Of a stretch of 64,000 bases of DNA, positions 6,106 to 51,539 are shown one piece after another (positions within the stretch are counted from its first letter, which is position 1; each line of letters starts with the position of its first letter). Source of the DNA: Clostridia bacterium. Lineage in GTDB: Bacteria; Bacillota; Clostridia; Oscillospirales; Acutalibacteraceae. The position numbers and the translations under genes were made by a program. The notes beneath the pieces were generated by a model. That model was not told where the DNA came from. It worked only from the letters and a program-made list of their open reading frames with translations, and did not search any database. Location: NCBI GenBank assembly GCA_017461235.1, contig JAFTYU010000004.1, positions 32,840-96,839 on the forward strand, written 5' to 3'.

Positions 6106-6308
6106 GTGTTTATATATAGTCAAAACCAACTAAATACAGAACTTCTTTTTGTGCAATGATACAAACTTAAAAAATTTTTGAAAAAACGTGAAATTTTATG
6201 CGTTTTTTGTCATATATAAGTGAACCCCATAAAAAAACAGGAGATGATACCGATGGTTTGGTAAAAAACCGGTGCGTGATAATTTGAAAATTTTATAGGA
6301 GGTAAATG

Positions 6309-36293: not shown

Positions 36294-36334
36294 GCTCCAC
36301 ATATCTGTTTAAAACAGATGTGTGGAGCTTTTTT
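36294..36334. terminator. Terminator between convergent genes
   Basis: Stem GCTCCACATATCTGTTT/ACAGATGTGTGGAGC with an AAA-type loop, followed by TTTTTT. It ends the epimerase operon and overlaps the 3' end of the convergent amidohydrolase gene. Confidence 0.88.
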
Positions 36335-37166
36335 ATTCTTTGATTTTCAATGCTCTGAGAATATTGTTGTAAAGTATGTCCTGCAGTTCAGTTTCAGATA
36401 AACCAAGAGAGCAAAGATATTCTAAATCTTCACTTTGTCGCCACATAGGATAATCCGTACCGAAAATTACTTTGTCCGTTCCGTAGGTGTTTATAAGTTT
36501 TTTAGTCGTTACCTTATCCAATGCATAAAACGATGAACAGGTGTCAACGTAAAAATTCGGATAGCCTGCAAGTTTTTCGGTTGCATCTTCCCATATTGAC
36601 CAACCGCCGAAATGCGCACCGATTATTGTTAAATCAGGAAACATTTTAAGAATTTTTTTGATTCTGTTGGGGTTAGAGTTGTCAAATCTTGAGTCACCCG
36701 TGTGCAGAAGCACGGGTAAATTGTGTTTGTTGCAGAGTTCAAAGATTTTTATTACTCTTGGGTCATCGGCTTTGAAATTCTGAATATCAGGATGGAGTTT
36801 GACACCGTGAAGACCTAATTCAATAAGGTGCTCCAAATCTTCTTCAAGAGCTTCACTTTCAGGGTGGAGTGAGCCGAGACCTATAAAACGGTCGGGGTAA
36901 AGCGCAACTTCGCTTGATATGTAAGAGTTAATACTTTGTGCGTGGTGTGGTGTTGTCGCAACGGACGTAACAACGCATTTTTCAACACCGTTTTCATCAC
37001 ATTGTTTAATAAGATTTTCGGCAGTACCCACAAAGGCACAACCGTCAATTTTTCCCGACGCACTTATACCGTAAAATTGGTCGATGCTGTCAGTTGCCTT
37101 TTTGGCAATGGCATCAGGGAATATGTGACAATGTGAATCAATTATTTTGAAATCTTTGTAATTCAT
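36333..37166 (-). CDS. Amidohydrolase-family metal-dependent hydrolase
   Basis: A 277-residue TIM-barrel hydrolase of the amidohydrolase_2 group (decarboxylase-like ACMSD family). Visible motifs are IIDSHCHIFPDA (HxH), GVKLHPDIQNF, PVLLHTGDSRF, IIGAHFGG and IFGTDYPMWR (metal Asp). The start is ATG 37166 with a short AGG-containing ribosome site. A terminator separates it from the acyl-CoA synthetase fusion upstream, so it is probably a separate transcript. The substrate is unknown. Confidence 0.82.
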   Translation of the reverse strand: MNYKDFKIIDSHCHIFPDAIAKKATDSIDQFYGISASGKIDGCAFVGTAENLIKQCDENGVEKCVVTSVATTPHHAQSINSYISSEVALYPDRFIGLGSLHPESEALEEDLEHLIELGLHGVKLHPDIQNFKADDPRVIKIFELCNKHNLPVLLHTGDSRFDNSNPNRIKKILKMFPDLTIIGAHFGGWSIWEDATEKLAGYPNFYVDTCSSFYALDKVTTKKLINTYGTDKVIFGTDYPMWRQSEDLEYLCSLGLSETELQDILYNNILRALKIKE

Positions 37167-37185
37167 TTTAGGACCTGCTCTGTTT

Positions 37186-37221
37186 AAAAATACAGAAGTC
37201 GAGTACCTGACCCGACTTCTG
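37186..37221 (-). terminator. Terminator of the Leu T-box operon
   Basis: Read on the minus strand: CAGAAGTCG ... CGACTTCTG with a loop of about 11 nt, followed by TATTTTTA. It follows the stop of the synthetase fusion gene by a few bases. Confidence 0.8.
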
Positions 37222-37228
37222 ATGGAAT

Positions 37229-39688
37229 TTATTTTTGATTATTGTATCTGTCGAGTGATTCTTCTCTCATCTTGTATTTGAGAATCTTACCTGCGGCATT
37301 CATTGGGAACTCGTTTACAAATAAGAAATATTTGGGAACTTTGTGTTTTGCAATCGATGCATAACCGTATTCCTTCATTTCTTTTTCGTCAGCGGTTTCA
37401 CCCTTATGAAGAATAATCCAAGCACAGCATTCTTCGCCGTACTGTTCATCGGGAACACCAACAACCTGCACATCGCGAACCTTGGGGTTGGTAAGGTAGA
37501 ATTCTTCAATTTCACGGGGATAGAGATTTTCACCGCCACGTATAATCATATCTTTAAGACGTCCCGTAACTTTGTAGTAGCCGTCAGGAGTTCTCATACA
37601 AATGTCACCGGAGTGAAGCCAACCTTCGCTATCAATAGCCTGAGCAGTTGCTTCAGGCATTTTGTAGTAGCCCTTCATAATGTTAAAGCCACGTGCAACA
37701 AATTCACCGCTCTGACCGTCAGGAAGCTCAAGACCGGTTTCGGGGTCAATAATTTTACATTCAACACCGGGGAATGCACTACCAACAGTTTCAACACGGT
37801 GGTCAAGGTCTTCGTTTACTTCACCCATTGTGCAGCCGGGAGACGCTTCTGTCTGACCATAAACTGAAATAATTTCACGCATATTCATTTCTACAGATGC
37901 ACGGCGCATAAGGTCTGCAGGGCAGTTAGCACCGGCCATAATGCCTGTTCGCATATATGAGAAGTCGGTTTTTGCGAAATCGGGATGGCCGAACATTGCA
38001 ATAAACATTGTGGGAACACCATTGAAACAGGTAATATGCTCATTATTTACACAAGCGAGTGATGACTTGGGTGAGAAATAGGGGATGGGGCAAAGTGTAC
38101 CACCATGGGTCATCATAGATGTCATTGAAAGCACCATGCCGAAGCAGTGGAACATAGGAACCTGAATCATCATTCGGTCAGCAGTTGATAAATCCATTCT
38201 GTCACCGATTGTTTTACCGTTGTTTATAATGTTACGATGTGTAAGCATAACACCCTTCGGGAAGCCTGTTGTACCTGAGGTATATTGCATATTACAAACA
38301 TCATCAGGCTTTACGAGTGAGGAACGTCTGCGAACCTCTTCTCTCGGAACAAGTGAAGAACGTGATAACATCTGTTCCCATGTAAGACAGCCATCCATTT
38401 CGAATCCTGCAGTAACAACGTTACGAAGGAAGGGAAGATTCTTGGAGTACAAGGGTGAACCGGGCTTAAGGCTTTTGAGTTCGGGACAAAGTTCTTCAAT
38501 AATATCCTTATAGTTGATGTCCTTGCAGTACTCAATCATAATAAGGGTGTGAGTATCTGACTGCTTGAGAAGGTATTCTATTTCGTGGATTTTATAAGCG
38601 GTGTTAACAGTAACAAGAACTGCACCGATTTTTGTTGTTGCCCAGAAGGTAATGAACCACTGCGGAACATTGGTTGCCCAGATTGCAACGTGGTCACCTG
38701 CTTTTACACCGAGTGAAATCAATGCAGCAGCACATTCGTCAACGTCACGACGAAACTGCTCGTAAGTTCTTGTATAGTCAAGAGTGGGGTATTTAAAAGC
38801 ATACTGATCGGGATATTTTTCCGCCATTTTATCAAGTACATCTGAGAATGTAGCGTCAATAACATCATATTTTTTCCAAGGGAATGTACCTGATTTATCA
38901 CGGTTGTAATATATATGGTCATAAACTTTTTTATCACGACCTAAAGATGAGATGTAGTTTGTGAAGTGAGTGAGGACAATGTCAGCGTCGCTGATTTCTT
39001 CGTTCCATGCAGCACAGATGAAGCCCTCATAATTAAGGGAAGAAAGAGCATTCAACAACTTCTCGACATCCAAATCACCTTCGCCGATTAAAACGGTTTT
39101 TCCGTCTTTCATATCGCCGAGACGAACGTATTTAATGTAAGCACCTAAGTTTTTGATAGTGGTTTCAGCAGTTTCACCTGCATCGAAATATGTTCCTCTT
39201 ACATTCCATGAAACACCGATAGCAGCTGAAGCAAAGTGGTTGATAACACCAATTACATTTTCTGTTCGTGCAAAATATCCTGTTGTTTCAAATAAAATGT
39301 TGACGTCACCCGACTGAGCTTTTTTGATCGCGCCTGCCATTTTCTCGTCAAGAATATCAAAAGCGACTTCGCTCTGTGTGTGAACAATAACATTTTCAAT
39401 ACCTGATGCAACTGCAAGATTAACATATTTTTCAACAAGCTCGGCAGTAGTGCTTTCGCTTTCTATGGGGGTGGGCATACGAAGAGCCGAAACAGCAAGG
39501 TTTCTGTTAATGAGCTTTCTTTTTGCGTCAGCAATACGTTCACGCCTCAAAATACTGTCGTGATGTTCGCTTCGTTCTTTTATGGCATCGTAAATTTCAA
39601 ACCCTTCAAAACCATAATCAAAGGCATAGCGACAGGTGTCAAGGAAAGAGGTTCGACGCACATTTTTGGTCGAAAATACAATTTTCAT
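37229..39688 (-). CDS. Fusion: xylose-isomerase-like TIM barrel + AMP-forming acyl-CoA synthetase
   Basis: An 819-residue two-domain protein. Residues 1 to about 255 form a sugar-phosphate isomerase/epimerase-like (AP-endonuclease-2 type) TIM barrel (VFSTKNVRRTSFLDTCRYAF, FEGFEIYDA, YVRLGDMKDGK). From about 270 it is a complete ANL-superfamily acyl-CoA synthetase. Visible are MQYTSGTTGFPKGVMLTH (P-loop), VYGQTEASPG, GWLHSGDICMR, GRLKDMIIRGGENLYPREIE and the terminal catalytic-Lys motif MNAAGKILKYKM. The ATG follows the LeuA-like stop by one base, with GAGGAGG inside the upstream gene. It is controlled by the predicted Leu T-box. Isovalerate activation is inferred from context; the acyl substrate cannot be read from sequence. 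Confidence 0.85.
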   Translation of the reverse strand: MKIVFSTKNVRRTSFLDTCRYAFDYGFEGFEIYDAIKERSEHHDSILRRERIADAKRKLINRNLAVSALRMPTPIESESTTAELVEKYVNLAVASGIENVIVHTQSEVAFDILDEKMAGAIKKAQSGDVNILFETTGYFARTENVIGVINHFASAAIGVSWNVRGTYFDAGETAETTIKNLGAYIKYVRLGDMKDGKTVLIGEGDLDVEKLLNALSSLNYEGFICAAWNEEISDADIVLTHFTNYISSLGRDKKVYDHIYYNRDKSGTFPWKKYDVIDATFSDVLDKMAEKYPDQYAFKYPTLDYTRTYEQFRRDVDECAAALISLGVKAGDHVAIWATNVPQWFITFWATTKIGAVLVTVNTAYKIHEIEYLLKQSDTHTLIMIEYCKDINYKDIIEELCPELKSLKPGSPLYSKNLPFLRNVVTAGFEMDGCLTWEQMLSRSSLVPREEVRRRSSLVKPDDVCNMQYTSGTTGFPKGVMLTHRNIINNGKTIGDRMDLSTADRMMIQVPMFHCFGMVLSMTSMMTHGGTLCPIPYFSPKSSLACVNNEHITCFNGVPTMFIAMFGHPDFAKTDFSYMRTGIMAGANCPADLMRRASVEMNMREIISVYGQTEASPGCTMGEVNEDLDHRVETVGSAFPGVECKIIDPETGLELPDGQSGEFVARGFNIMKGYYKMPEATAQAIDSEGWLHSGDICMRTPDGYYKVTGRLKDMIIRGGENLYPREIEEFYLTNPKVRDVQVVGVPDEQYGEECCAWIILHKGETADEKEMKEYGYASIAKHKVPKYFLFVNEFPMNAAGKILKYKMREESLDRYNNQK

Positions 39689-39689
39689 A

Positions 39690-41078
39690 TTATGCCTCCT
39701 CGAATACGATTTTGTTCAATGCGTTAATATATGCTCTTATGCTTGCGGCAACAATGTCAGTAGATGTGCCGTTACCTGAATAGAGTTTTCCGTTGTTGCG
39801 AAGCCTTACAAGCGCAGAGCCGAGAGCTTCTTTGCCTTCTGTTACGGATTGTACCTGGAAATCATCAAGCTCATAGTGATGACCTATACACTGCTCAATT
39901 GCACGGAAAACAGAGTCAATGGGACCGTCACCGTTGCTTACGCCACAAATGATTTCGTCGTTACATTTCAATGTAACCTGAGACATAGATGCTGACATAT
40001 TGCTGCTTGTTGTTGTGTATGTTTCAAAGTGATAGGTGGAAGGAGCCTGCATTGCAGAGCTTGCTATAATTGCTTCAAACTCTTTATAGCCAACAGCACC
40101 CTTCTTTTCACATACCTGTTTAAGAGCTTTTTGTACATTGCCCACATCTGAATCGGAAAGCTCGTAGCCTAAAACGGCAGCTGCCTGAGCAACCTGATCA
40201 ATTGTGGAATCGGTGTCGAGAAGGATTTTTTTGCCGTCGCTTACAGCTTTGTTGGTTTCATAGGCATCGTGGCTGATGCTTGATAACATATCTTCGATAC
40301 TTGCGTGGATTTTTGTGTTGTTAAGCTTGATTTCAGCATCAATCTGTGTACCGCAAGCATTAATTGCATCAGAAATTTCACCTGTGAGAAGAGCATTTTT
40401 ACCTGCCATTGCACATTTGAGACCATCAGCACCGCTTTTGACAGCATAAAATGCAGAAGCAACTGCCATACTGACGTTGTCCGATACCTGAACATAAACA
40501 GGGATGCTTACTGCTGCTTTTACCTTTGCAACCAATTCTGCGATATTGTCAGGAGTTAAAGCACCTGCATCGTCACAGATTGTAACAATATTTGCACCTG
40601 AAGCTTCTGCTTCTTTCACGGCAGCAATAAGGAAATCTTCATCTGCTCTTGTTGCATCAAGTGCAGAAAATTCAACGTCAGCACAGAATTCCTTTGCAGC
40701 TTTGATAAGTGCTGAAATTTTTTCGAGCATTTTTGCCTGTTTTACGTGATATGTGTATTCCATACGGAGCGTGGAAACGGGAAGCTCAATCTGAAGACGG
40801 GGCTTCTGCGCATCCTTTATGCATTCCCAAGCAACAGCAACATCCTCCGTGTTGAAGCCAACAGGGATTGCAAAAATTGCATTTTGCACGTTCTGTGCAA
40901 TTGTTTTATAGATGATTTTATCTTCGGCAGGGGATTTGACTGCAGGAACTTCAATTACATCCACACCGATTTTATCGGCACAGTTTGCAATTGATGATTT
41001 TTCTCTGAATAGCAAGGACACAGCTCTGTCCTCTGAAATCTTTTTTAGAGTGATGTCGGAAATGATAATTTTTTTCAT
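39690..41078 (-). CDS. LeuA-like protein with degenerate catalytic site and intact LeuA regulatory domain
   Basis: A 462-residue protein with an HMGL-like barrel and a C-terminal LeuA allosteric/dimer domain (VTLKCNDEIICGVSNGDGPI, then LGSALVRLRNNGKLYSGNGTSTDI). The barrel starts IIISDITLKKISEDRA where isopropylmalate synthases have a DTTLRDGEQ-type motif. The usual metal-binding HxHND is replaced by YVQVSDNVSMAVA, so the catalytic Arg, Asp and His residues appear lost. It may be a leucine sensor or an enzyme of changed chemistry rather than 2-isopropylmalate synthase. ATG 41078 is preferred over ATG 41087, which touches the AAAGGA site. It is the first gene behind the Leu T-box leader. Confidence 0.75.
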   Translation of the reverse strand: MKKIIISDITLKKISEDRAVSLLFREKSSIANCADKIGVDVIEVPAVKSPAEDKIIYKTIAQNVQNAIFAIPVGFNTEDVAVAWECIKDAQKPRLQIELPVSTLRMEYTYHVKQAKMLEKISALIKAAKEFCADVEFSALDATRADEDFLIAAVKEAEASGANIVTICDDAGALTPDNIAELVAKVKAAVSIPVYVQVSDNVSMAVASAFYAVKSGADGLKCAMAGKNALLTGEISDAINACGTQIDAEIKLNNTKIHASIEDMLSSISHDAYETNKAVSDGKKILLDTDSTIDQVAQAAAVLGYELSDSDVGNVQKALKQVCEKKGAVGYKEFEAIIASSAMQAPSTYHFETYTTTSSNMSASMSQVTLKCNDEIICGVSNGDGPIDSVFRAIEQCIGHHYELDDFQVQSVTEGKEALGSALVRLRNNGKLYSGNGTSTDIVAASIRAYINALNKIVFEEA

Positions 41079-41127
41079 TTTATTCATCCTTTCGAACGTA
41101 TAATATATAATGTATATAGCGTGGCAA

Positions 41128-41407
41128 TAAAAAACCTGAGGTCAAAAGTAATTTTGACCTCAGGGACGAATTACAAAATCCGCGGTACCACCCCGGTTAC
41201 TGCATAAGCAGTCACTCATTAAGACTCTGTATAAAGCCTGTAGCCATGGTAACGGGGCCGCCGTAGTTTCTTACACGTAACAACGGTTGGGAAACTCTGC
41301 TCCGGAACGAGACCGAGCTTTTGCAACATATCGGCTCACAGCAACCGCCGACTCTCTGTAATGTCAAACCAAAAACACGTAATTCCTTCATCGCATTTAT
41401 GAATATG
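41128..41407 (-). promoter_or_regulatory. T-box leader, predicted specifier CUC (Leu)
   Basis: A minus-strand leader. The stem-I apex has AGAGAGTCGGCGGTTGCTGT and the T-box bulge GGTGGTACCGCGG is at 41192-41180. The terminator has the arm CCTGAGGTCAAAA and its complement (41164-41135), followed by TTTTTTATT. The predicted specifier CTC is at 41311-41309, six bases before GAGC, the same distance as in the other two leaders. It controls the LeuA-like gene and the synthetase fusion. Uncharged tRNA-Leu should favour antitermination. Confidence 0.9.
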
Positions 41408-41413
41408 GGAGAA

Positions 41414-41442
41414 ATGATATCATTAAATTTGTTTTTTGTCAA
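41414..41442 (-). promoter_or_regulatory. Promoter of Leu T-box transcript
   Basis: Minus strand: TTGACA (41442-41437), 17-nt spacer, TATCAT (41419-41414). Confidence 0.8.
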
Positions 41443-41503
41443 CATTTATTTTGGTTTTTTTTGAAAAAATCAAAAAACACAAGAAAAAATTGAACGAAAA
41501 CTA

Positions 41504-41530
41504 TTGACAGAAAAAAAGAAGTGTGATAAT
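41504..41530 (+). promoter_or_regulatory. Promoter of Ile T-box transcript
   Basis: TTGACA (41504-41509) and GATAAT (41525-41530) with a 15-nt spacer. It is divergent from the Leu T-box promoter, 60 bp away, across an A/T-rich stretch. Confidence 0.65.
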
Positions 41531-41559
41531 CTTGTTACCAAATTGAAAATATCACAAAT

Positions 41560-41834
41560 AAAAGCTGTGACGAAGACGGTCGAAAACAACAGTTTACAGA
41601 GAGTCGGCGGTTGCTGTGAGCCGATAGCTTGTTTTTTTCATTGACCCATCCCTTCTGAGCCGAAGGTCCGAACGATTTATATCAAGTAGGCGCCTCCCGA
41701 GAATGCTGCGTTAGTGCAACGGAGTTGATAGACTCTTAAGGTGGCAATTTTTATAATTGCAATTTGAGTGGTACCGCGGATATTGATTATTCGTCTCAAA
41801 GTAAAACGAAAGTTTTTCTTTGGGACTTTTTTAT
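41560..41834 (+). promoter_or_regulatory. T-box leader, predicted specifier AUC (Ile)
   Basis: A plus-strand leader. The stem-I apex (AGAGAGTCGGCGGTTGCTGT) is at 41598-41617, the predicted specifier ATC is at 41648-41650 six bases before GAGC, and the T-box TGGTACCGCGG is at 41769-41779. The terminator hairpin at 41793-41826 is followed by TTTTTTTATTT. The apex is identical over 33 nt to that of the divergent Leu leader. It controls the first HTH-cupin-acyl-CoA synthetase gene. Confidence 0.9.
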
Positions 41835-41877
41835 TTGTGCATTTTTGATTATTTCTTTTTTGAAAGGATGAAAAGTT

Positions 41878-44151
41878 ATGGTCGATAATTCAGTAACAAA
41901 CAAACTCGCTGAGGTTGCTCAGCGTATATCCGAGCTTCGTAACATTTACGGTTTCACTGATGAAGAAATGGCTGCAAAAACCGAAGTTACACTTGATGAA
42001 TACCATGCGTATCTTGACGGCAGGGAGGATATGCCTTTTGCTTTCGTTCACAAATGCGCTCTTGCGTTCGGTGTTGAAATCACCGATTTGTTAGAGGGTC
42101 AGAGTGCAAAGCTTTCAACATACAATGTTACACGTTGCGGAGAAGGCAAAACTACCGCTAATGAGGAAGGCATACTTATTCAGAACCTTGCGCCCAATTT
42201 TAAAAAGAAGCTTGCCAACCCTTATTGGGTTAAATATGAATATTCAAGTGAGTTACAGTCCAAACCCATTGAGGTTACTACTCACTCCGGACAGGAGTTT
42301 GACCTTGTTATCAAGGGGACACTCAAGGTTCAGGTCGGCGATAATATAGAAGTTCTTCACGAAGGTGACAGTATCTATTATAAGAGCTCCACTCCTCACG
42401 GTATGATTGCCGTTGACGGTGAGGATTGTCTTTTCCTTGCTATGGTTATGGCTGAAGATGAAAAAGTTGCGGATGAGCATATGAGCTCCGTAAATGTAGG
42501 CAGAGCACCTAAAGAGGAAAAGCTTGTCTGTGACAAATTTATTACAACGACCGTTGATGCAAAAGGCGTTTGTGACAGTATCTCATTCACAAATGAAGAT
42601 AAATTTAACTTTGCTTACGATATCATCGATGAGCTTGGCAGAAAATATCCTGAAAAACTTGCTATGCTCCATATCGCAGAAGATATGACAGAACGAAGAT
42701 TCACATTTAAAGATATCAAAGAAGCATCATCACAGGCGGCTAACTATTTTAAATCTTTAGGTATAAAGAAAGGTGACAGAGTCCTTCTTGTTCTTAAACG
42801 TAACTATCAGTTCTGGATTGCTATACTCGGACTTCATAAGCTGGGTGCAGTTGCTATCCCGGCAACAAACCAGTTGGTTGTACACGATTATGAATATCGT
42901 TTCAATTCTGCAGGGGTTTCTGCGGTAATTGCTACTGCTGACGGTAAAGCAACCGAAAGCATTGATGAAGCACAGGTAAACAGCCCCACGCTTAAAATTA
43001 AAATCGTTGCCAACGGCGCAAAAGACGGTTGGCACAATTTCGATGAAGAATACGGTCTTTTCAGCCGTCGTTTTGTACGCGATGAAGATACCGCTTGCGG
43101 CGATGACCCCATGATTATGCTCTTTACATCGGGCACAACGGGTTATCCTAAAATCGCTACTCACTCTCACAAATATCCTTTAGGTCACTTTATCACCGCC
43201 AAATACTGGCATTGCGTTGAGCGTGACGGTATCCACTTTACCATTTCCGAAACAGGTTGGGGTAAAGCGCTCTGGGGTAAGCTTTACGGTCAGTGGCTCT
43301 GCGAAGGCGCAGTTTTCGTTTATGACTTCGACCGTTTTGATGCATCGAAAATTCTTCCGATGTTTGCAAAGTATAACATCACAACCTTCTGCGCACCCCC
43401 CACAATGTACAGAATGCTTATTAAACAGGATATCTCACAGTATGACCTTTCTTCAATAAAGCATGCAACAACTGCAGGCGAGGCTCTCAACCCCGAAGTA
43501 TTCAAGCAGTTTGAAAAAGCAACGGGCTTGCGTGTTCACGAAGGCTTTGGTCAGACTGAAACAACACTTTCAATTGCAAACCTTAACGGCACACCTATCA
43601 AAATCGGTGCTATGGGTAAACCCACACCCCTTTATGATATTGATATCGTTGATTCTGACGGCAACCCTGTTGCAGACGGTGAAACAGGCGAAATCGTAGT
43701 TCATACCGATAATAACGTTCCTTGCGGTCTTTTCCTTGGCTATTACAATAACGAGGAAGCCACCAAAGAAGTATATCACGACGGACTTTATCATACAGGT
43801 GATACCGCATGGCGTGACGAAGACGGTTATCTGTGGTACGTTGGTCGAGTTGACGACGTTATCAAATCATCAGGCTACCGTATCGGACCCTTCGAGATTG
43901 AAAATGTTATTATGGAGCTTCCCTATGTTCTCGAATGCGGTGTTTCTGCCGCTCCCGATGAATTGAGGGGCCAGGTTGTCAAGGCAAGTATCGTTCTTAC
44001 AAAAGGTACCGAGGGTACCGAAGAACTGAAGAAGGAAATTCAGAATTACGTTAAGAAAAATACTGCTCCCTATAAATACCCCCGTATAGTCGTTTTCAGA
44101 GATGAGCTTCCCAAAACAATCAGCGGAAAAATCATCAGAAACAAGCTGTAA
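41878..44151 (+). CDS. HTH-cupin-acyl-CoA synthetase triple fusion 1 (Ile T-box)
   Basis: A 757-residue protein. Residues about 8-75 form an XRE-type helix-turn-helix (EVAQRISELRNIYGFTDEEM, then AALAFGVEITDLLEG-like core). About 125-195 is a cupin (EFDLVIKGTLKVQVGD, GDSIYYKSSTPHGM). From about 230 it is a full AMP-forming acyl-CoA synthetase: MLFTSGTTGYPKIATHSHKY (P-loop), EGFGQTETT, YHTGDTAW, GRVDDVIKSSGYRIGPFE and the terminal SGKIIRNKL catalytic-Lys motif. The stand-alone form of the first two parts is a common transcriptional-regulator layout, so regulator and enzyme are fused. The predicted substrate, from the Ile T-box and the neighbouring VOR/BCAT genes, is 2-methylbutyrate; this is inference. 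Confidence 0.85.
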   Translation: MVDNSVTNKLAEVAQRISELRNIYGFTDEEMAAKTEVTLDEYHAYLDGREDMPFAFVHKCALAFGVEITDLLEGQSAKLSTYNVTRCGEGKTTANEEGILIQNLAPNFKKKLANPYWVKYEYSSELQSKPIEVTTHSGQEFDLVIKGTLKVQVGDNIEVLHEGDSIYYKSSTPHGMIAVDGEDCLFLAMVMAEDEKVADEHMSSVNVGRAPKEEKLVCDKFITTTVDAKGVCDSISFTNEDKFNFAYDIIDELGRKYPEKLAMLHIAEDMTERRFTFKDIKEASSQAANYFKSLGIKKGDRVLLVLKRNYQFWIAILGLHKLGAVAIPATNQLVVHDYEYRFNSAGVSAVIATADGKATESIDEAQVNSPTLKIKIVANGAKDGWHNFDEEYGLFSRRFVRDEDTACGDDPMIMLFTSGTTGYPKIATHSHKYPLGHFITAKYWHCVERDGIHFTISETGWGKALWGKLYGQWLCEGAVFVYDFDRFDASKILPMFAKYNITTFCAPPTMYRMLIKQDISQYDLSSIKHATTAGEALNPEVFKQFEKATGLRVHEGFGQTETTLSIANLNGTPIKIGAMGKPTPLYDIDIVDSDGNPVADGETGEIVVHTDNNVPCGLFLGYYNNEEATKEVYHDGLYHTGDTAWRDEDGYLWYVGRVDDVIKSSGYRIGPFEIENVIMELPYVLECGVSAAPDELRGQVVKASIVLTKGTEGTEELKKEIQNYVKKNTAPYKYPRIVVFRDELPKTISGKIIRNKL

Positions 44152-44187
44152 TCCGACGGAAAATATTAACAAAATAAACTTCTGCTA

Positions 44188-44216
44188 TTGACAAAACAGG
44201 GCAGATGTGGTATCTT
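44188..44216 (+). promoter_or_regulatory. Promoter of Val T-box transcript
   Basis: TTGACA (44188-44193), 17-nt spacer, TATCTT (44211-44216), directly after the first synthetase gene. Confidence 0.75.
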
Positions 44217-44222
44217 TGAGAA

Positions 44223-44512
44223 AATTAAATATTAAAGGCGTTGAAGAAAAGGGCGCGGTGAATTCACCTTTCAGAGAAGTGGCGGTTGGTGCAAGCCACA
44301 GGTAGGGTTGCCGATGTTTGTAGTTTCCGAGCCGGGAGGAAGAAAAGCCGATTCAGGCTTAGTAGAACCTCTCCGTGATTGCTGCGTGAATGCATAGGGG
44401 TTGTTTGACCTTGAGTGGCAGTTTTAAACTGCAATTTGAGTGGTACCGCGGGTATAAATTTGTGTTTTTACTCGTCTCAAAGATTATCTTTGGGACGAGT
44501 TCTTGTTTTTTT
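44223..44512 (+). promoter_or_regulatory. T-box leader, predicted specifier GUA (Val)
   Basis: The stem-I apex has AGAGAAGTGGCGGTTGGTGC. The predicted specifier GTA is at 44320-44322, six bases before GAGC, and the T-box TGGTACCGCGG is at 44441-44451. The terminator stem ACTCGTCTCAAAGA with its complement is at 44470-44500, followed by TCTTGTTTTTTT. It controls the second HTH-cupin-acyl-CoA synthetase gene and possibly the downstream VOR/BCAT genes by read-through. Confidence 0.9.
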
Positions 44513-44540
44513 CGTCCCGCCGAATTACAGGAGGATAATT

Positions 44541-46829
44541 ATGGAAAAAATTACCGGTCTTGATTACAAAATCAAGGAAATGGCAGCGCGTATTAAAGAA
44601 CTTCGTGAAATCGAAAATCTCAGCGTTGCCGAAATGGCAATTAAAACAGATGTTACGGAAAGTGAATATCTTGCTTGTGAAAACGGTGAAAAGGACCTTA
44701 ACTTTGCCTTTATTTACCGTTGTGCTCTCGCATTTAATGTTGACGTTACAAGCATCATCGAGGGTCACAGCCCTAAGCTTTCAAACTACGTCTTCACAAA
44801 AGCGGGCAAGGGACAGAAAATAGAAAAAGCCCATGGTATGACCTACTATAACCTTGCGGCATCCTTTAAGAACAGAATTGCTGAACCGCTTTTCGTTCGC
44901 AGTACATATGATGAAACAAAACAGCACAGCGATATAGAACTCACTACCCACGCAGGTCAGGAGCTTGATATCGTTATTGAAGGTAAGCTTAAAGTTCAGG
45001 TTGGCGAGCATTACGAGATTCTCGGTCCCGGTGACAGTATCTATTATGACAGTTCCACACCCCACGGTATGATTGCGGTTGACGGTAGCGACTGTACCTT
45101 CTATGCGTTGGTTCTTAATCCCACCGGTGAACCTATTCCCGAGCTCACTCACGCACAGACCATCAGAGATACAAATACGGCTCATAAAGATACAAAAGAC
45201 CGTATTTACCGTAAATTTATTGATGTTGAAGAAAACGAAAAAGGAACACCCACATCAATAAAATTCAAAAATACGGAGAATTTCAACTTTGCATTCGACC
45301 TTATTGATGCCCTTGCTGAAAAAGAGCCCGATAAATTGGCAATGCTCCACATTTCAAGGGATAAAACTGAACGCCGTTTCACTTTTAAAGATATGAAAAA
45401 GGCATCTAACCAGGCGGCTAACTACTTTAAATCTTTGGGTATCAAAAAAGGCGACAGAGTAATGCTTATTCTCAAGCGTCATTACCAGTATTGGTTTGCG
45501 ATGCTGGGTCTCAATAAATTGGGCGCTATCGGTATTCCCGCACCCAATCAGCTTCTTGAACATGACCTTGAATACCGTTTCAATGCGGCAGGTGTTAAAG
45601 CGATACTCTGTACAACTGACGGCGACGTTGCCAATCAGGTTGACATCGCGGCAGAAAAAAGCCCTTCGCTTCAGATTAAAATTGCGGTCGGCGGTGAACG
45701 CGACGGCTGGCGCAATTATGACGAAGAAAGTGCGTTATTCAGTTCGCGCTACGAACGCGGTGAGAATGCTCCCGGCGGCGACGACCTTATGTTAATGTTC
45801 TTTACATCGGGTACAACGGGTTATCCTAAGATTGCCGTACATAATTATAAATATGCACTCGGTCATTTCCATACAGCAAAATATTGGCATAACGTTGACC
45901 CTGACGGACTTCATTTCACTATTTCCGACACAGGTTGGGCGAAGTCTATGTGGGGTAAATTTTATGGTCAATGGCTCTGTGAAGCAGCACTTTTTGTTTA
46001 TGATTTTGATCGTTTTGATGCTGCGGATATTCTTCCTATGTTCGCAAAACACAAGATAACAACTTTCTGCGCACCACCCACAATGCTCAGAATGATGATA
46101 AAACAAGATATATCAAAATACGATTTCAGTTCGGTTAAACATATGACAACCGCAGGTGAAGCCCTTAACCCCGAGGTTTACCGTCAGTTTGAAAAGGCGA
46201 CGGGACTTCAGATTCTCGAAGGCTTCGGTCAGACTGAAAGCACAATGATTATAGGTAATATGACGGGTGCATCCCATAAAATCGGTTCTATGGGTAAACC
46301 TGCTCCTATATATGACGTATGCCTTCTTGACGGCGACGGCAATCCTGTTAAAGCAGGTGAAAACGGAGAAATTGTTGTTAAGGTTAAGGATGGCGCACCT
46401 TGCGGCCTGTTCACAGGCTATTACAATGATGAAGATAAAACAAAAGAAGTTTGGCATGACGGTTATTACCATACGGGCGACGTTGCCTGGATGGACGAAG
46501 ACGGCTTCTATTGGTATGTCGGCAGAGTTGACGATGTTATCAAATCATCCGGTTACCGCATAGGACCCTTCGAAATCGAAAGTGTTATTATGGAGCTTCC
46601 GTATGTTCTTGAGTGCGGTGTTTCTGCCGCTCCTGATGAAGTTCGTGGTCAGGTAGTTAAAGCAAGCATCGTTCTCGTTAAAGGCACGGAAGGTACCGAT
46701 GAACTCAAAAAGGAAATTCAACAGTACGTAAAAGAGCGTACAGCTCCTTACAAATATCCCCGTATTGTTGTATTCAGAGATGAACTTCCTAAAACTACAA
46801 GTGGCAAAATCCAGCGAAATAAGCTTTGA
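44541..46829 (+). CDS. HTH-cupin-acyl-CoA synthetase triple fusion 2 (Val T-box)
   Basis: A 762-residue paralogue of the preceding synthetase with the same order of domains: XRE-type HTH (about 10-80), cupin (about 130-200; ELDIVIEGKLKVQVGE, GDSIYYDSSTPHGM) and acyl-CoA synthetase (MFFTSGTTGYPKIAVHNYKY, EGFGQTEST, YHTGDVAW, GRVDDVIKSSGYRIGPFEIE, SGKIQRNKL). ATG 44541 has AGGAGG six bases upstream; a farther upstream in-frame ATG lies in the T-box leader and is rejected. The Val-type specifier and the neighbouring VOR and aminotransferase genes suggest isobutyrate as substrate, which is inference. The two copies are most alike in the synthetase part. Confidence 0.85.
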   Translation: MEKITGLDYKIKEMAARIKELREIENLSVAEMAIKTDVTESEYLACENGEKDLNFAFIYRCALAFNVDVTSIIEGHSPKLSNYVFTKAGKGQKIEKAHGMTYYNLAASFKNRIAEPLFVRSTYDETKQHSDIELTTHAGQELDIVIEGKLKVQVGEHYEILGPGDSIYYDSSTPHGMIAVDGSDCTFYALVLNPTGEPIPELTHAQTIRDTNTAHKDTKDRIYRKFIDVEENEKGTPTSIKFKNTENFNFAFDLIDALAEKEPDKLAMLHISRDKTERRFTFKDMKKASNQAANYFKSLGIKKGDRVMLILKRHYQYWFAMLGLNKLGAIGIPAPNQLLEHDLEYRFNAAGVKAILCTTDGDVANQVDIAAEKSPSLQIKIAVGGERDGWRNYDEESALFSSRYERGENAPGGDDLMLMFFTSGTTGYPKIAVHNYKYALGHFHTAKYWHNVDPDGLHFTISDTGWAKSMWGKFYGQWLCEAALFVYDFDRFDAADILPMFAKHKITTFCAPPTMLRMMIKQDISKYDFSSVKHMTTAGEALNPEVYRQFEKATGLQILEGFGQTESTMIIGNMTGASHKIGSMGKPAPIYDVCLLDGDGNPVKAGENGEIVVKVKDGAPCGLFTGYYNDEDKTKEVWHDGYYHTGDVAWMDEDGFYWYVGRVDDVIKSSGYRIGPFEIESVIMELPYVLECGVSAAPDEVRGQVVKASIVLVKGTEGTDELKKEIQQYVKERTAPYKYPRIVVFRDELPKTTSGKIQRNKL

Positions 46830-46838
46830 TAAATCGCG

Positions 46839-46902
46839 AATTTTCGGTTTTGCTCACACTCGCAGTACCTTTGTACAGCTTCGGTTCGCAAAATCCGAAA
46901 CT
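46839..46902. repeat. Large imperfect hairpin with dispersed repeat core
   Basis: TTTCGGTTTTGC and GCAAAATCCGAAA are complementary with one bulge. The enclosed CACTCGCAGTACCTTTGTAC (from 46857) plus AGCTTCGG resembles the unit at 57687-57714. It lies just after the second synthetase gene and could slow or end transcription, but it has no clear T-run. Confidence 0.5.
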
Positions 46903-46971
46903 TCATTGATTTCTCTGCGCTTATTAAACGATTATTGTAAATTATGAATTACGAATTATAATCGGCGATAC

Positions 46972-47144
46972 AAGTGAAGTTTTTTGTTGTACAAAAAGTG
47001 AAGTTATGTTAAAACATAGTGAAGGTTTTATCTAGTTATAAAAGTGAAGTTAAGTTTGCCCTTTATATCACTTGCGAAGCAAACTTCACTGCTTTGCAAC
47101 TTCACTACGAAGTAACTTCACTTGCCGTAAGGCAAACTTAGTTA
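46972..47144. repeat. Heptamer/mini-hairpin array element B
   Basis: It holds most of the 352-nt gap between the synthetase and P-loop genes. GTGAAGT occurs three times in direct orientation, plus a GTGAAGG variant, separated by mini-palindromes (TTTTTGT-TGT-ACAAAAA, TATGTT-AA-AACATA, TTTTAT-CTAGTT-ATAAAA). After a centre at about 47055-47075 the complement ACTTCAC follows three times, separated by TTGC-GAA-GCAA, TGC-TTT-GCA and TAC-GAA-GTA, ending in TTGCC-GTAA-GGCAA. It has the same design as element A at 5.7 kb but a different heptamer. No ORF is evident. Confidence 0.75.
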
Positions 47145-47181
47145 ATTCTAAAGTTGCTCCTAACCTGAAAGTTGGTGAAAT

Positions 47182-47844
47182 ATGCAGTACAAACGAATGA
47201 CTCTCTTTGCGGGGCACTACGGTAGCGGCAAAACAAACATTGCCGTCAACTACGCACTGCATCTTAAAAGCCTTGGTGAAGACGTAGTTATTGCCGACCT
47301 TGATATAGTTAATCCTTATTTCAGAACCCGCGACAGTCTTGAAGAACTGAACGCGGCAGGGATAAAACTCATCTCTTCAGAGTTTGCAAGCTCCAATGTG
47401 GATTTACCTGCATTGCCGCAGGAAGTTTATTCCCTTCTTGACAAACGTGAAGAAAAGGCGATAATGGATATAGGCGGTGATGACCGCGGAGCTTACGCTC
47501 TGGGTAGGTATTCTGATGCCATTAAGGCGGAAGATGATTACGAAATGCTTTTCGTTTTCAATAAATACAGACCTCTGACACCTACTGCAGAAGATGCGCT
47601 TGAAATAATGAGTGAAATTGAAGCAGCAGGTCATATAAATTTCACTGCAATTGTTAATAACTCCAATCTTGGGGCTTTAACAACAGCACAAGATATTCTC
47701 GATTCGGTTGAAGAAACCGAAAGACTCAGCCGTTTATCGGGTTTGCCCGTGAAAATGACAACGGTTAGAGATGATTTAGTTTATAATCTCAACGGAAAAG
47801 TGGAAAATCTGTTTCCGCTGACTTTACAAAAGAAAATTGTATAA
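47182..47844 (+). CDS. P-loop ATPase (MinD/ParA-like) linked to 2-oxoacid oxidoreductase
   Basis: A 220-residue ATPase with an N-terminal Walker A variant AGHYGSGKTN, DLDIVNPYFRTRDS (MinD/ParA-like second motif) and IMDIGGDDRGAYALG (Walker B-like). It ends with the NLFPLTL segment. It has no partner ParB, and the next gene, 21 nt downstream, is the ferredoxin subunit of the VOR operon. It may help cofactor or cluster loading of that complex, which is only inference from context. The start is ATG 47182 with a weak ribosome site. The upstream gap holds element B rather than a recognisable promoter. Confidence 0.75.
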   Translation: MQYKRMTLFAGHYGSGKTNIAVNYALHLKSLGEDVVIADLDIVNPYFRTRDSLEELNAAGIKLISSEFASSNVDLPALPQEVYSLLDKREEKAIMDIGGDDRGAYALGRYSDAIKAEDDYEMLFVFNKYRPLTPTAEDALEIMSEIEAAGHINFTAIVNNSNLGALTTAQDILDSVEETERLSRLSGLPVKMTTVRDDLVYNLNGKVENLFPLTLQKKIV

Positions 47845-47865
47845 AGCAAAGCAGGAGGAAGAACA

Positions 47866-48072
47866 ATGGCAAAAGTTACATTTGCAGAAAATGTATGTAA
47901 GGGTTGCGGTTTATGCGTAACTGCTTGTCCGAAAAAAATTGTGGAGCTCGATTCCGCAAAACTTAATGCAAAGGGTCACCATCCCGCCCACTGCATTGAC
48001 CAGAGTCAGTGCATCGGTTGTGCATTCTGTGCAACAATGTGTCCCGACTGTGCAATAACCGTTGAAAGGTAA
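47866..48072 (+). CDS. 2-oxoacid:ferredoxin oxidoreductase, delta (2[4Fe-4S]) subunit
   Basis: A 68-residue ferredoxin-like subunit with two cluster motifs, CKGCGLCVTACPKK and CIGCAFCATMCPDC, both of the CxxCxxCxxxCP type. GGAGG lies upstream of ATG 47866. Its place directly before the alpha, beta and gamma genes marks it as the electron-transfer subunit of a four-subunit VOR/KOR-type enzyme, passing electrons between the TPP subunit and free ferredoxin. Confidence 0.9.
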   Translation: MAKVTFAENVCKGCGLCVTACPKKIVELDSAKLNAKGHHPAHCIDQSQCIGCAFCATMCPDCAITVER

Positions 48073-48082
48073 GGTGAGATAA

Positions 48083-49147
48083 ATGGGTGAAAAAGTTTTA
48101 ATGAAAGGTAATGAAGCTATTGCTGAAGCCGCTATCAGAGCAGGCTGTTTGCATTATTTCGGCTATCCCATTACCCCACAGACAGAAATTGCCGCATATA
48201 TGGCAAAGCGTATGCCCAAGGTTGGTGGCGTATTCCTTCAGGCAGAAAGTGAAATTGCTGCTATCAATATGGTTCTTGGCGTTGCTGCAACAGGCAAACG
48301 TGTTATGACATCATCTTCAAGTCCCGGAGTTTCTCTTAAGAGTGAAGGCATTTCTTACATAGCAGGTTCTGATGTTCCGGCACTTATTGTTAACGTTCAG
48401 CGTGGCGGCCCCGGTCTCGGCGGTATTCAACCTTCGCAGTCCGACTATTTCCAGGCAGTTAAGGGCGGTAGCCACGGTGACTTTATGAAAATCGTTCTTG
48501 CACCTTCATCAGTGCAGGAGATGGCTTCTCTTACAAGCACCGCATTTGATCTTGCCGATAAATACAGAATGCCTGCAATGATTCTTGCAGACGGTACTAT
48601 GGGTCAGATGATGGAGCCTGTTGAGCTTCCCGAAACAGAGCCTAACACATTCGATAAACCCTGGGCTCTTACAGGTACAAAGGGCGAGAGAAAGCACAAT
48701 ATTGTAAACTCTCTTTATCTCAAACCCGAAGAGCTTGAGAAAACAAACTTCGAGCGTTTCGCCAGATATAAAACAATTGAGGAAAACGAAGTTCTTTATG
48801 AAGAATATCTTATGGACGATGCAGAAATCTGCGTAGTCTCCTTTGGTATAACTGCTCGTGTTGCTAAAAACGCAATAGTTGAAGCACGTGCTAAAGGTAT
48901 CAAGGTTGGTATGATTCGTCCCATTACTCTCTGGCCCTTCCCCAAGAAGGTTTTAAGAGCTGCCGCAGATAAATGCAAGGCGTTCCTTTCAGTCGAAATG
49001 AATATGGGTCAGATGATTGAAGATGTTAAGCTTGCAACAGAATGCAAGAAGCCCGTATATCTTTGCAACCGTACAGGCGGTATGATCCCTTCTCCCGAAG
49101 AGGTTCTTGCAAAGATTGTAGAAATCAATGAAGGAGGCGACAAATAA
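48083..49147 (+). CDS. vorB: 2-oxoacid:ferredoxin oxidoreductase alpha subunit (VorB type)
   Basis: A 354-residue alpha subunit of the pyruvate/2-oxoacid:ferredoxin oxidoreductase superfamily, 3-methyl-2-oxobutanoate (VOR) type. [44 protein letters not shown] and [18 protein letters not shown] are the characteristic alpha-subunit segments. The alternative assignment is 2-oxoglutarate (KOR) type, since families are close. The nearby BCAT and BCAA T-boxes favour branched-chain 2-oxoacids. It overlaps the beta gene (TAATG). Confidence 0.88.
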
Positions 49148-49899
49148 TGGTAGTATTTGAAAAGCCAAAGACACTCACAGATGCACCGCTTCACTATTGT
49201 CCCGGTTGTACACACGGTATTATCCACAGACTTGTTGCCGAAGTTATTGATGAACTCGGTATTGACGGCAGAACAATAGGTGTAGCACCTGTTGGTTGCT
49301 CAGTTATGGCTTATGATTATTTCACTTGTGATTTTATTCAGGCACCCCATGGCAGAGCTCCGGCTGTTGCTACAGGTGTAAAACGTGCTGACCCCGAAAA
49401 TAACATTGTTTTTACATATCAGGGTGACGGTGACCTTGCCGCTATAGGTACTGCAGAAACTGTTCACGCCGCCGCAAGACGTGAAAACATCACGGTTATT
49501 TTCGTTAATAATGCTATTTACGGTATGACGGGCGGTCAGATGGCTCCCACAACACTTCCCGGTCAGGTGACACAGACTTCACCTTACGGCAGAGATGTTG
49601 AAACAGTAGGTTATCCTGTTAAGGTTTGTGAGCTCCTTCAGAATGTTGACGGTGCCGCTTACCTTGAGAGAGTTGCAGTTAATAATCCTGCAAACGTTAA
49701 AAAAGCTAAGAAAGCTATCAAAAAAGCTTTCCAGAATCAGCTTGAAGGTAAAGGCTTCTCACTTGTAGAAGTTGTTTCAACCTGTCCTACAAACTGGGGT
49801 CTTACACCACAGAAGGCGCTTGAGTGGCTCGAGGAAAATATGATTCCATACTATCCTCTCGGTGTTTATAAAGATATCTATGCAGAGGAGGCAAAATAA
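49147..49899 (+). CDS. 2-oxoacid:ferredoxin oxidoreductase beta subunit (TPP-binding)
   Basis: A 250-residue thiamine-diphosphate-binding subunit. [14 protein letters not shown] near the start is a conserved CxxC(G/T)H motif. [14 protein letters not shown] and [18 protein letters not shown] together form the GDG-NN TPP/Mg motif. The start shares a base with the stop of the alpha gene, so expression is coupled. With ferredoxin as partner the enzyme is reversible: oxidative decarboxylation of 2-oxoacids or reductive carboxylation of acyl-CoAs. Confidence 0.92.
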
Positions 49900-49901
49900 T
49901 T

Positions 49902-50438
49902 ATGAGTAACACATGTAATATTCTTTTTGCCGGCTTCGGCGGTCAGGGTATCCTTTTTGCAGGTAAATTTGTTGCATACAAAGGTCTTCTTGAGAATAAA
50001 CAGGTTTCATGGCTTCCTTCATATGGTCCTGAAATGCGTGGCGGTACAGCTAACTGTAGTGTTATCGTAAGTGATGAACCTATCGGTTCACCAATTGTAG
50101 GCAAGCCCGATGTTCTTGTTGCTATGAACCTTCCTTCTCTTGACAAATACGAAAATGAAGTTGTTTCAGGCGGTAAAATTTTTGTTGACTCAACTCTTAT
50201 TTCGCGTAAGGTCGAAAGAACAGATGTTGATGTGTACTATATTCCTGCAACATCCATTGCTAATGAGCAGGGTATAAGCACGCTCGCTAATATGATTATC
50301 ACAGGTAAACTTCTTAAGGAAGTTCCGATGCTCGGTTTCGACGGTATTGATGCACCTCTCTCAAAGGTTGTTTCAGCACGTAAAGCACACCTTCTTGAGG
50401 TTAACAAAACCGCACTTAAACTTGGTTACGACTATTAA
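49902..50438 (+). CDS. 2-oxoacid:ferredoxin oxidoreductase gamma subunit
   Basis: A 178-residue gamma subunit. The glycine-rich [20 protein letters not shown] and [19 protein letters not shown] segments are diagnostic for the family. It starts two bases after the beta stop. It completes a delta-alpha-beta-gamma operon; the aminotransferase gene follows after 24 nt. Confidence 0.92.
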
Positions 50439-50462
50439 TTGATTTGAAAAGAGGTTATTTCA

Positions 50463-51539
50463 ATGAGTTACGATTTCAAAATTGAAAGAACTGCAACTCC
50501 CAAGGCAAAACCTGTTGATGAAAGCAAACTCGGTTTTGGTAAAATCTTTACAGACCATATGTTCCTTATGAACTATGATGAAGGCAAAGGTTGGCATGAT
50601 GGCAGAGTTGTACCTTACGGTCCCATCTCTCTCGACCCTTCTGCAATGGTTTTCCACTATGCACAGGAGCTTTTTGAAGGTCTTAAAGCATACAGAACTG
50701 CTGACGGAAATATTCAGCTTTTCCGTCCCCAGAAAAATATTGAAAGAATGAATAACACCTGCGACCGTCTTTGCGTTCCGCGTCTTGATCCGGATATGGT
50801 TCTTGAAGCTATCAAGACTGTTGTTGATGTTGACAGCGATTGGGTTCCCCATAGCGACGGAACATCTCTTTATATCCGTCCTTTCATAATCGCCACTGAT
50901 GAGTTTCTTGGTGTTCATCCTTCACACAGCTATCTTTTTGCTATAATCCTTTCACCTGTTGGTTCTTATTATCCTAACGGTATGGACCCTGTTAAAATCG
51001 CTATCGAACGTGAATACGTACGTTGCGTTAAGGGCGGTACAGGTATGGCAAAGGCAGGCGGTAACTATGCCGCATCTCTTATCGGTCAGGAAAAGGCTGA
51101 TAAAATGGGCTACGCGCAGGTTCTCTGGCTCGACGGTGTTGAGAGAAAGTATATCGACGAAGTTGGCGCTATGAACGTTTTCTTTGTTATTGACGGTGTT
51201 GTTATTACACCTGAACTTACAGACGGCAATATCCTTCCCGGTGTTACAAGAGCAAGTAGTATCGAAGTTCTTAAGGCTCACGGCTACAAGGTTGAGGAAC
51301 GTAAGATTTCCATAGATGAAGTTAAAGAGGCTCACAAGAACGGCACTCTTAATGAATCCTTCGGTACAGGAACAGCTGCTGTTATTTCACCCGTTGGTGA
51401 GTATATTGACGGTGACGAACATATCGTTATTAACAATAACGAAATCGGTCCTGTTGCTCAGTTCCTCTACGATGAACTCACAGGTATTCAGTGGGGTAAA
51501 ATCGAAGATAAGAACGGCTGGATTGTCAAAGTAAAATAA
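50463..51539 (+). CDS. ilvE: Branched-chain amino acid aminotransferase
   Basis: A 358-residue class IV PLP aminotransferase of the longer BCAT-II group. FHYAQELFEGLKAYR, KGGTGMAKAGGNYAASL (PLP Lys region), VLWLDGVERKYIDEVGAMN and GTGTAAVISPVG are family hallmarks. It interconverts Val, Leu and Ile with their 2-oxoacids. It has GAAAAGAGG upstream and ends the VOR operon before a strong terminator. With VOR upstream it would complete conversion of branched acyl-CoAs to amino acids or, in reverse, their degradation. T-box control of the acyl-CoA synthetases favours the synthetic direction. Confidence 0.94.
   Translation: MSYDFKIERTATPKAKPVDESKLGFGKIFTDHMFLMNYDEGKGWHDGRVVPYGPISLDPSAMVFHYAQELFEGLKAYRTADGNIQLFRPQKNIERMNNTCDRLCVPRLDPDMVLEAIKTVVDVDSDWVPHSDGTSLYIRPFIIATDEFLGVHPSHSYLFAIILSPVGSYYPNGMDPVKIAIEREYVRCVKGGTGMAKAGGNYAASLIGQEKADKMGYAQVLWLDGVERKYIDEVGAMNVFFVIDGVVITPELTDGNILPGVTRASSIEVLKAHGYKVEERKISIDEVKEAHKNGTLNESFGTGTAAVISPVGEYIDGDEHIVINNNEIGPVAQFLYDELTGIQWGKIEDKNGWIVKVK

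Follow-up and report, generated by a model that had tools for sequence, protein, structure and literature searches.

Acyl-CoA synthetases behind leucine, isoleucine and valine T-boxes in a clostridial gene cluster predicted to make branched-chain amino acids from scavenged acids

Introduction

Why should an acyl-CoA synthetase be placed under the control of a leader that senses uncharged tRNA? The question is raised by a stretch of 64,000 nucleotides from a Clostridia bacterium of the Acutalibacteraceae (assembly GCA_017461235.1, contig JAFTYU010000004.1, positions 32,840 to 96,839 of the forward strand; the whole stretch is referred to here as the window), in which three T-box leaders with leucine, isoleucine and valine specifiers accompany three acyl-CoA synthetase genes, next to genes for a 2-oxoisovalerate ferredoxin oxidoreductase (VOR) and a branched-chain amino acid aminotransferase (BCAT). 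We conclude, from comparison of the window with its relatives, that this is very likely an anabolic cluster, in which Leu, Ile and Val would be made from scavenged isovalerate, 2-methylbutyrate and isobutyrate. The evidence that carries this reading is the conservation of the specifier amino acid in front of each type of gene and the scarcity of ketol-acid reductoisomerase (ilvC) in genomes that hold the synthetases.

Several cultured rumen bacteria need such branched acids (isoacids). In passages of two studies of rumen microbes isobutyrate is given as a precursor of Val, 2-methylbutyrate of Ile and 3-methylbutyrate of Leu (PMC7356843, PMC10658910), and isoacids are fed to ruminants (passages of PMC10311502, PMC7356843 and PMC10658910). 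This synthesis is known as physiology, whereas what we propose here is a conserved and regulated gene set for it.

Results

Organization of the cluster

The features of the cluster are given below in window coordinates.

36333..37166, minus strand: amidohydrolase gene (Amidohydrolase_2), third in the Leu operon; PF04909, 119.8 bits
37229..39688, minus strand: fusion of a TIM-barrel (xylose-isomerase-like) domain with an AMP-binding acyl-CoA synthetase, 819 aa; PF01261, PF00501, PF13193
39690..41087, minus strand: LeuA-like (2-isopropylmalate-synthase-like) protein, 465 aa; PF00682, PF08502, alignments and PDB searches
41135..41164, minus strand: terminator hairpin of the Leu leader, then a U run; by folding
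41159..41400, minus strand: Leu T-box leader, specifier CUC at 41311-41309; RF00230, 111.8 bits, E 2e-24
41558..41801, plus strand: Ile T-box leader, specifier AUC at 41648-41650; RF00230, 97.4 bits, E 9.9e-21
41793..41826, plus strand: terminator hairpin of the Ile leader, then a U run; by folding
41878..44151, plus strand: Ile-type synthetase, a fusion of helix-turn-helix (HTH), cupin and acyl-CoA synthetase, 757 aa; Pfam/NCBIfam, PDB 3etc 612 bits
44232..44482, plus strand: Val T-box leader, specifier GUA at 44320-44322; RF00230, 83.9 bits, E 3e-17
44473..44497, plus strand: terminator hairpin of the Val leader, then a U-rich run; by folding and sequence
44541..46829, plus strand: Val-type synthetase, a fusion of HTH, cupin and acyl-CoA synthetase, 762 aa; Pfam/NCBIfam, PDB 3etc 621 bits
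47182..47844, plus strand: P-loop ATPase (MinD/ParA-like); weak Pfam matches under cut-off
47866..48072, plus strand: VorD-type 4Fe-4S ferredoxin subunit (VOR delta); Pfam
48083..49147, plus strand: VorB (alpha) of 2-oxoisovalerate ferredoxin oxidoreductase; NF005507, 556.3 bits, cut-off 399
49147..49899, plus strand: VOR beta subunit, TPP-binding; PF02775
49902..50438, plus strand: VOR gamma subunit; PF01558
50463..51539, plus strand: BCAT (ilvE type II); NF009897, 500.7 bits, cut-off 307

A preliminary description of the window had listed three acyl-CoA synthetase transcripts, each starting with a T-box. This holds for Ile and Val; behind the Leu T-box, the LeuA-like gene comes before the TIM-barrel synthetase and the amidohydrolase. 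The AMP-binding character of the synthetases was confirmed, with PF00501 and the C-terminal domain PF13193 found in all three, and each proved to be a fusion protein. The start of the Val synthetase has been moved to ATG 44541, which, judged by eye, is the more likely one, lying behind AGGAGG; GTG 44415 falls within the leader. Pfam and NCBIfam likewise placed the VOR subunits (delta, alpha, beta, gamma) and BCAT downstream, as described, with the addition of the P-loop ATPase gene between the Val synthetase and VOR, which had been overlooked. VorB scores above its family cut-off in the window and in 29 of 40 relatives, some of them without the fusions. In its subunits and their order the oxidoreductase is like VOR (VorDBAC); it differs in standing beside T-box-led synthetases and a P-loop ATPase. 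Of the 59 loci with vorD, 58 have the ATPase gene on its 5' side, no more than 500 bases away; the ATPase perhaps serves VOR maturation or activation.

Specifier register and leader folds

The leaders share with other T-boxes (RF00230) the Stem I specifier, AGAGA, GAGC, the UGGN bulge, a competing terminator and a target related to amino acids, and differ in that the targets are acyl-CoA synthetases. An RF00230 scan found all three, the Leu and Ile leaders exceeding the gathering score of 93 and the Val leader (83.9) falling under it, and the specifiers CUC (Leu), AUC (Ile) and GUA (Val) were each read six bases 5' of GAGC. The register was tested with three Stem I sequences of the window and 25 of relatives, picked by specifier, GAG[CT] and AG[AC]GA and not by the 5' arm. 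Across these 28 leaders, the register-setting helices around the specifier were paired in 168 of 168 cells and four of the six pairs of the specifier-flanking helices had changed on both sides, while shifting the 3' partner by one base cut the pairing to 39 or 52 percent. Leaders of NCBIfam-named genes in the same genome served as controls: the six-base rule gave the correct codon for pheS (UUC), thrS (ACC), ileS (AUC) and trpB (UGG) and misread the alaS leader by one base. The sixth control, the leader of aspS, gave no match with the Stem I covariance model. Given the covarying flanking helices and the four of six control leaders read correctly, a chance fit of the six-base rule was rejected, and the three specifiers of the preliminary description were upheld.

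When pieces of the Leu, Ile and Val leaders were folded, each leader gave an antiterminator as well as a terminator that overlaps it, with U-rich runs following, and the N of the UGGN bulge is U throughout. The tRNA-Leu(GAG) and tRNA-Val(UAC) of the genome have discriminator A and end in ACCA; the Thr leader of the same genome has bulge base A, against the UCCA end of its tRNA-Thr. The match between bulge and discriminator covers Leu and Val, Ile being without a tRNA to compare, and is drawn from a set in which 30 of 31 tRNA matches came with loci, covered by 23 loci.

Conservation of the specifiers among relatives

A scan of named genomes gave at least 585 confirmed synthetase relatives, fused or not, from which the best 80 loci were kept. 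The titles of 79 of these mark metagenome-assembled genomes or bins, the remaining one being the cultured strain Erysipelotrichaceae bacterium NK3D112, and a herbivore host (goat, sheep, deer, buffalo, yak, cattle, horse, rabbit etc.) is named in 44 of the 80 and none in the other 36. The same gene arrangement and codons recur in relatives from the genus. A Stem I covariance model built from the 28 sequences was run on the named loci and the relatives, taking over from a regular-expression reading that misread the codon of some leaders and missed that of others.

Of the 210 matches read, 197 precede a cluster gene, and the other 13 include the controls and tandem ilvA leaders. Within the 197, the leaders of LeuA-like genes all carry Leu codons (39/39; 25 CUC, 14 CUG), those of Ile-type synthetases all carry AUC (90/90) and those of Val-type synthetases (n = 68) carry GUA in 56 cases, GUC in four and AUC in eight, each synthetase being typed by whichever of the two proteins in the window it matches better, with near ties in some loci. 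This set mixes named and unnamed loci, including some identical contigs. The cleaner count, from the 80 named loci and the window, is 29 of 29 for Leu, 74 of 74 AUC for the Ile type, and 45 Val codons with three AUC among 48 leaders of the Val type. Two of these last three (L121, L144) belong to first synthetases that precede a GUA-led one, and the third (L170) to a lone synthetase. Eight of nine further LeuA-like loci have a leader, all with Leu codons (CUC in six, then CUG and CUU, the latter two at 50 and 43 bits and in a less certain register), and a CUC leader also precedes one of six canonical LeuA loci. Because synonymous codons replace one another (CUC/CUG/CUU, GUA/GUC), these readings suggest that the conserved feature of the specifier is the amino acid.

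The bulge base is U in 194 of the 197 cluster leaders, with no core detected in the other three. When 155 labelled synthetase domains were placed on a FastTree tree, three changes of specifier amino acid were enough to explain the labels, compared with an average of 46.9 for a shuffled Val label, a low count that near-copies among the 155 sequences favour. Within flanks of 6 kb at most, 56 of the 81 loci include VorB and 10 include BCAT. Taken across these leaders, the counts support what the preliminary description had put forward, namely that dedicated synthetases in the neighbourhood of VOR and BCAT are each under a T-box specific to one amino acid. In two loci (L126, L177) the LeuA-like gene, the TIM-barrel synthetase and both fusions stand in one row with no T-box match between them, perhaps as one long operon.

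Predicted substrates of the Ile and Val synthetases

The best PDB sequence match of both HTH-cupin fusions is 3etc, well ahead of the next (612 against 346 bits for Ile, 621 against 362 for Val), and their best NCBIfam match is MbcS (NF047394), at 445 and 442 bits against a cut-off of 850, which leaves them outside that family. Gly precedes QTE in all three synthetases, at a site that we take, by motif position, to correspond to a Trp of acetyl-CoA synthetase. The role of this Trp is described in a passage of PMC10455477, from which it is also known that 3etc is a Methanosarcina enzyme (MacsMa) with 2-methylbutyrate as its preferred acyl substrate. MbcS, as described in part of PMC10026030, takes 2-methylbutyrate and isobutyrate, accepts isovalerate poorly and serves fatty acids. 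The Ile-type enzyme is accordingly close to an enzyme of known preference: its prediction as a 2-methylbutyrate:CoA ligase is the best founded of the three, because the closest solved structure is the 2-methylbutyrate enzyme 3etc. For the Val type an isobutyrate:CoA ligase is plausible, since it has the same closest structure and MbcS also accepts isobutyrate. The substrate range of MbcS would fit MbcS-like enzymes for Ile and Val and a different enzyme for Leu. What separates the two fusions from MacsMa and MbcS is their HTH and cupin parts and their T-box control.

For the HTH match, the Val protein scores above one Pfam cut-off, of which the Ile protein falls slightly short. The HTH parts are acidic in 153 of 153 Ile/Val fusions, with a median net charge of -6 that stands without a comparison set of ordinary HTH domains, and this acidity probably speaks against DNA binding. 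Stand-alone HTH-cupin genes also occur (L064, L069, L070); as their products are acidic as well, the acidity did not arise with the fusion.

The Leu operon holds a degenerate LeuA

The marks of a 2-isopropylmalate synthase are the HxH metal ligands, a catalytic Arg, the ERAGN loop and the GIHQ segment. In an alignment of 47 LeuA-like rows (46 distinct, the window's own having been entered twice) with six canonical LeuA rows, HxH, ERAGN and GIHQ were each found in 0/47 of the former and 6/6 of the latter, and the catalytic Arg was kept in 4/47. A working 2-isopropylmalate synthase was therefore rejected for the LeuA-like protein, as its catalytic motifs are gone. It shares with LeuA the HMGL-like barrel and LeuA_dimer (PF08502, 108.1 bits) and differs in having lost an entire segment along with the residues for metal binding and catalysis. 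Columns conserved to at least 90 percent number 35 of 283 in the barrel half and 62 of 166 in the regulatory half of the LeuA-like proteins, making the regulatory half about three times more conserved. When 27 LeuA-like and four canonical sequences were combined into one profile (31 in all), it matched isopropylmalate synthases and the solved regulatory domain 3f6g (E 0.00014). In 15 genus relatives the LeuA-like protein is the sole LeuA_dimer match, and no short LeuC was found in them. The LeuA-like protein is probably a dead enzyme kept as a candidate leucine sensor.

The nearest solved sequences of the partner TIM-barrel synthetase are other acyl-CoA synthetases, and it sits elsewhere in the superfamily than the Ile and Val types; conserved columns of its TIM-barrel domain were listed by alignment. 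It is predicted to be an isovalerate:CoA ligase from its T-box alone; of the three substrates proposed in the preliminary description, that of Ile stands firmest and that of Val is plausible.

Scarcity of ilvC in genomes with the fusions

We compared fusion matches with ilvC (PF01450) in 297 genomes of the order that were at least 90 percent complete, scoring at most three candidates per genome at a limit of 1e-230, which omits split and diverged synthetases. At least two fusion matches, which need not be one Ile and one Val type, were found in 31 genomes, and only 3 of these have ilvC, against 175 of all 297 (Fisher p 2.5e-9, uncorrected for relatedness); for genomes with any fusion match the figure is 29 of 98, against 146 of 199 without one (Fisher p 6.9e-13, likewise uncorrected). 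The 31 genomes fall into 19 genera, 18 of which include a member without ilvC. As 28 of the 31 show no ilvC, the isoacid route appears to stand in for lost de novo synthesis in most relatives with the fusion pair.

Within the window's genus (22 genomes) ilvC was not found in 16 of 18 carriers, of which nine have a completeness of 76 to 84 percent and the other seven of at least 90 percent; G010 and G019, whose matches span the synthetase part only, were counted as non-carriers. In the set of 40 relatives, ilvD and ilvC occur together in the same 14. Twelve of the 14, along with G010 and G022, also have a match for a short LeuC (about 420 to 480 aa), every such match lying under the model cut-off. 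The absence of ilvC and ilvD from most carriers supports the earlier proposal that these genes make, and do not degrade, branched-chain amino acids.

Other features of the window

In the repeat-rich gap between the Val synthetase and VOR there is a weak match to Gut-1 RNA (47060-47144, minus strand, 31.9 bits against a gathering score of 50). At 6306-12284 the window encodes an RHS-repeat protein of 1992 aa with a C-terminal AHH nuclease match, resembling a polymorphic toxin.

Discussion

We propose that during shortage of one amino acid its uncharged tRNA would bind the matching T-box, the NCCA end would pair with the UGGU bulge and termination would be prevented, so that the synthetase for the missing amino acid would be made. 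This synthetase, assigned to its family by sequence, would use ATP to convert the corresponding branched acid to its acyl-CoA, the shared VOR with reduced ferredoxin would carboxylate the acyl-CoA reductively to the 2-oxo acid, and BCAT, likewise recognized by family, would transaminate the 2-oxo acid to the amino acid. The LeuA-like protein probably senses leucine through LeuA_dimer and may adjust its partner synthetase. Control might then act at two levels, with tRNA-sensing RNA picking the synthetase and sensor parts from old proteins tuning it afterwards: the Leu ligase would have a dead isopropylmalate synthase as its leucine reader, and the Ile and Val ligases an acidic HTH-cupin part that probably does not bind DNA. 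We offer this scheme tentatively and give it somewhat less than even weight.

Several observations weigh against an anabolic isoacid cluster. The second synthetase has no Val T-box in 17 of 62 tandem loci, a Leu T-box match is absent before 3 of 32 LeuA-like genes, and 3 of 81 loci have no cluster T-box match, one of them truncated by a contig end. No tRNA-Ile(GAU) was found among the 31 tRNA matches of the 94 percent complete assembly. The reductive direction of VOR is one that we infer, and the homology of the Leu synthetase does not indicate isovalerate. The association across the 297 genomes rests on fusion and ilvC matches, T-boxes playing no part in it, and ilvC is kept in 26 of the 67 genomes with a single fusion match, which were not sorted by type. 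The organism's own genome also carries an ilvA-ridA-leuACDB-ilvBHCD operon behind tandem Leu and Ile leaders. The idea of a genome without the de novo route, raised in the preliminary description as a check for a lack of ilvBN, ilvC and ilvD, was therefore rejected. Its ilvB (L063 13507-15180) has an in-frame TGA where the copy in relative G006 is open; either an assembly error or a decaying de novo route may lie behind it. The tandem T-boxes, CUC then AUC, precede ilvA in G000 and G006 (L063 6899-7181, L072 1855-2137); the first of each pair shows Stem I, with no antiterminator detected. This operon, the dead LeuA-like candidate sensor and the HTH-cupin and TIM-barrel fusions were all missing from the earlier interpretation.

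The synthetases might chiefly prime branched-chain fatty acid synthesis, like MbcS in Staphylococcus aureus. MbcS is the top named family of the Ile and Val types, though far under its cut-off, and itself serves fatty acids (PMC10026030, in part), but such priming would leave one T-box per amino acid, the VOR and BCAT neighbours and the association with missing ilvC without a reason, and we consider it very improbable. Degradation of branched-chain amino acids with an oxidative VOR is hardly credible: both VOR and BCAT are reversible in principle, yet T-boxes turn on under amino acid shortage, AMP-forming ligases consume ATP, and most genomes with two fusion matches have no ilvC. Carriers could also be plain amino-acid importers that use the cluster for minor salvage. 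Of the 297 genomes, 53 show no ilvC and no fusion match, so ilvC loss alone does not require an isoacid route; the strength of the association with missing ilvC and the conserved T-box control nevertheless make this quite improbable.

A different possibility concerns the Leu operon, where the LeuA-like protein, TIM-barrel synthetase and amidohydrolase might together form an enzymatic leucine route of an unknown kind instead of a sensor plus an isovalerate ligase. Three linked genes under one Leu T-box would suit such a route, as would the HxH and later His and Asp motifs that the amidohydrolase retains (by eye) and the homology of the Leu synthetase, which gives no hint of isovalerate. The loss of HxH, ERAGN and GIHQ from every LeuA-like row and the greater conservation of the regulatory half speak against it, as does the presence of an amidohydrolase match in only 8 of the 32 loci that hold both the LeuA-like protein and the TIM-barrel synthetase, and we regard it as unlikely. 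Assimilation of isoacids into Leu, Ile and Val is thus the reading that we prefer.

The T-boxes are ordinary and the physiology is known; the regulated gene set with its odd sensor-like parts is what we found no record of. Supplements aside, the terms acyl-CoA and ferredoxin are absent from the main text of a 2008 T-box survey (PMC2494555), and acyl-CoA and ferredoxin oxidoreductase from that of a 2013 survey (PMC3766115). No link between T-boxes and isoacid synthetases was found among the matches listed or by term searches of main texts (PMC2494555, PMC3766115, PMC7778990, PMC7583486), a scope that leaves most subscription papers and TBDB outside, and among the literature matches listed there were no synthetases for an isoacid route with amino-acid-specific control.

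With the cluster, a feeding route that has so far been a matter of physiology would gain its genes and their regulation. The cluster also offers a candidate leucine sensor derived from a dead biosynthetic enzyme. The T-box specifier would serve as a built-in label of the synthetase product, and substrates, isoacid dependence and cross-feeding may therefore become predictable from genomes, and testable.

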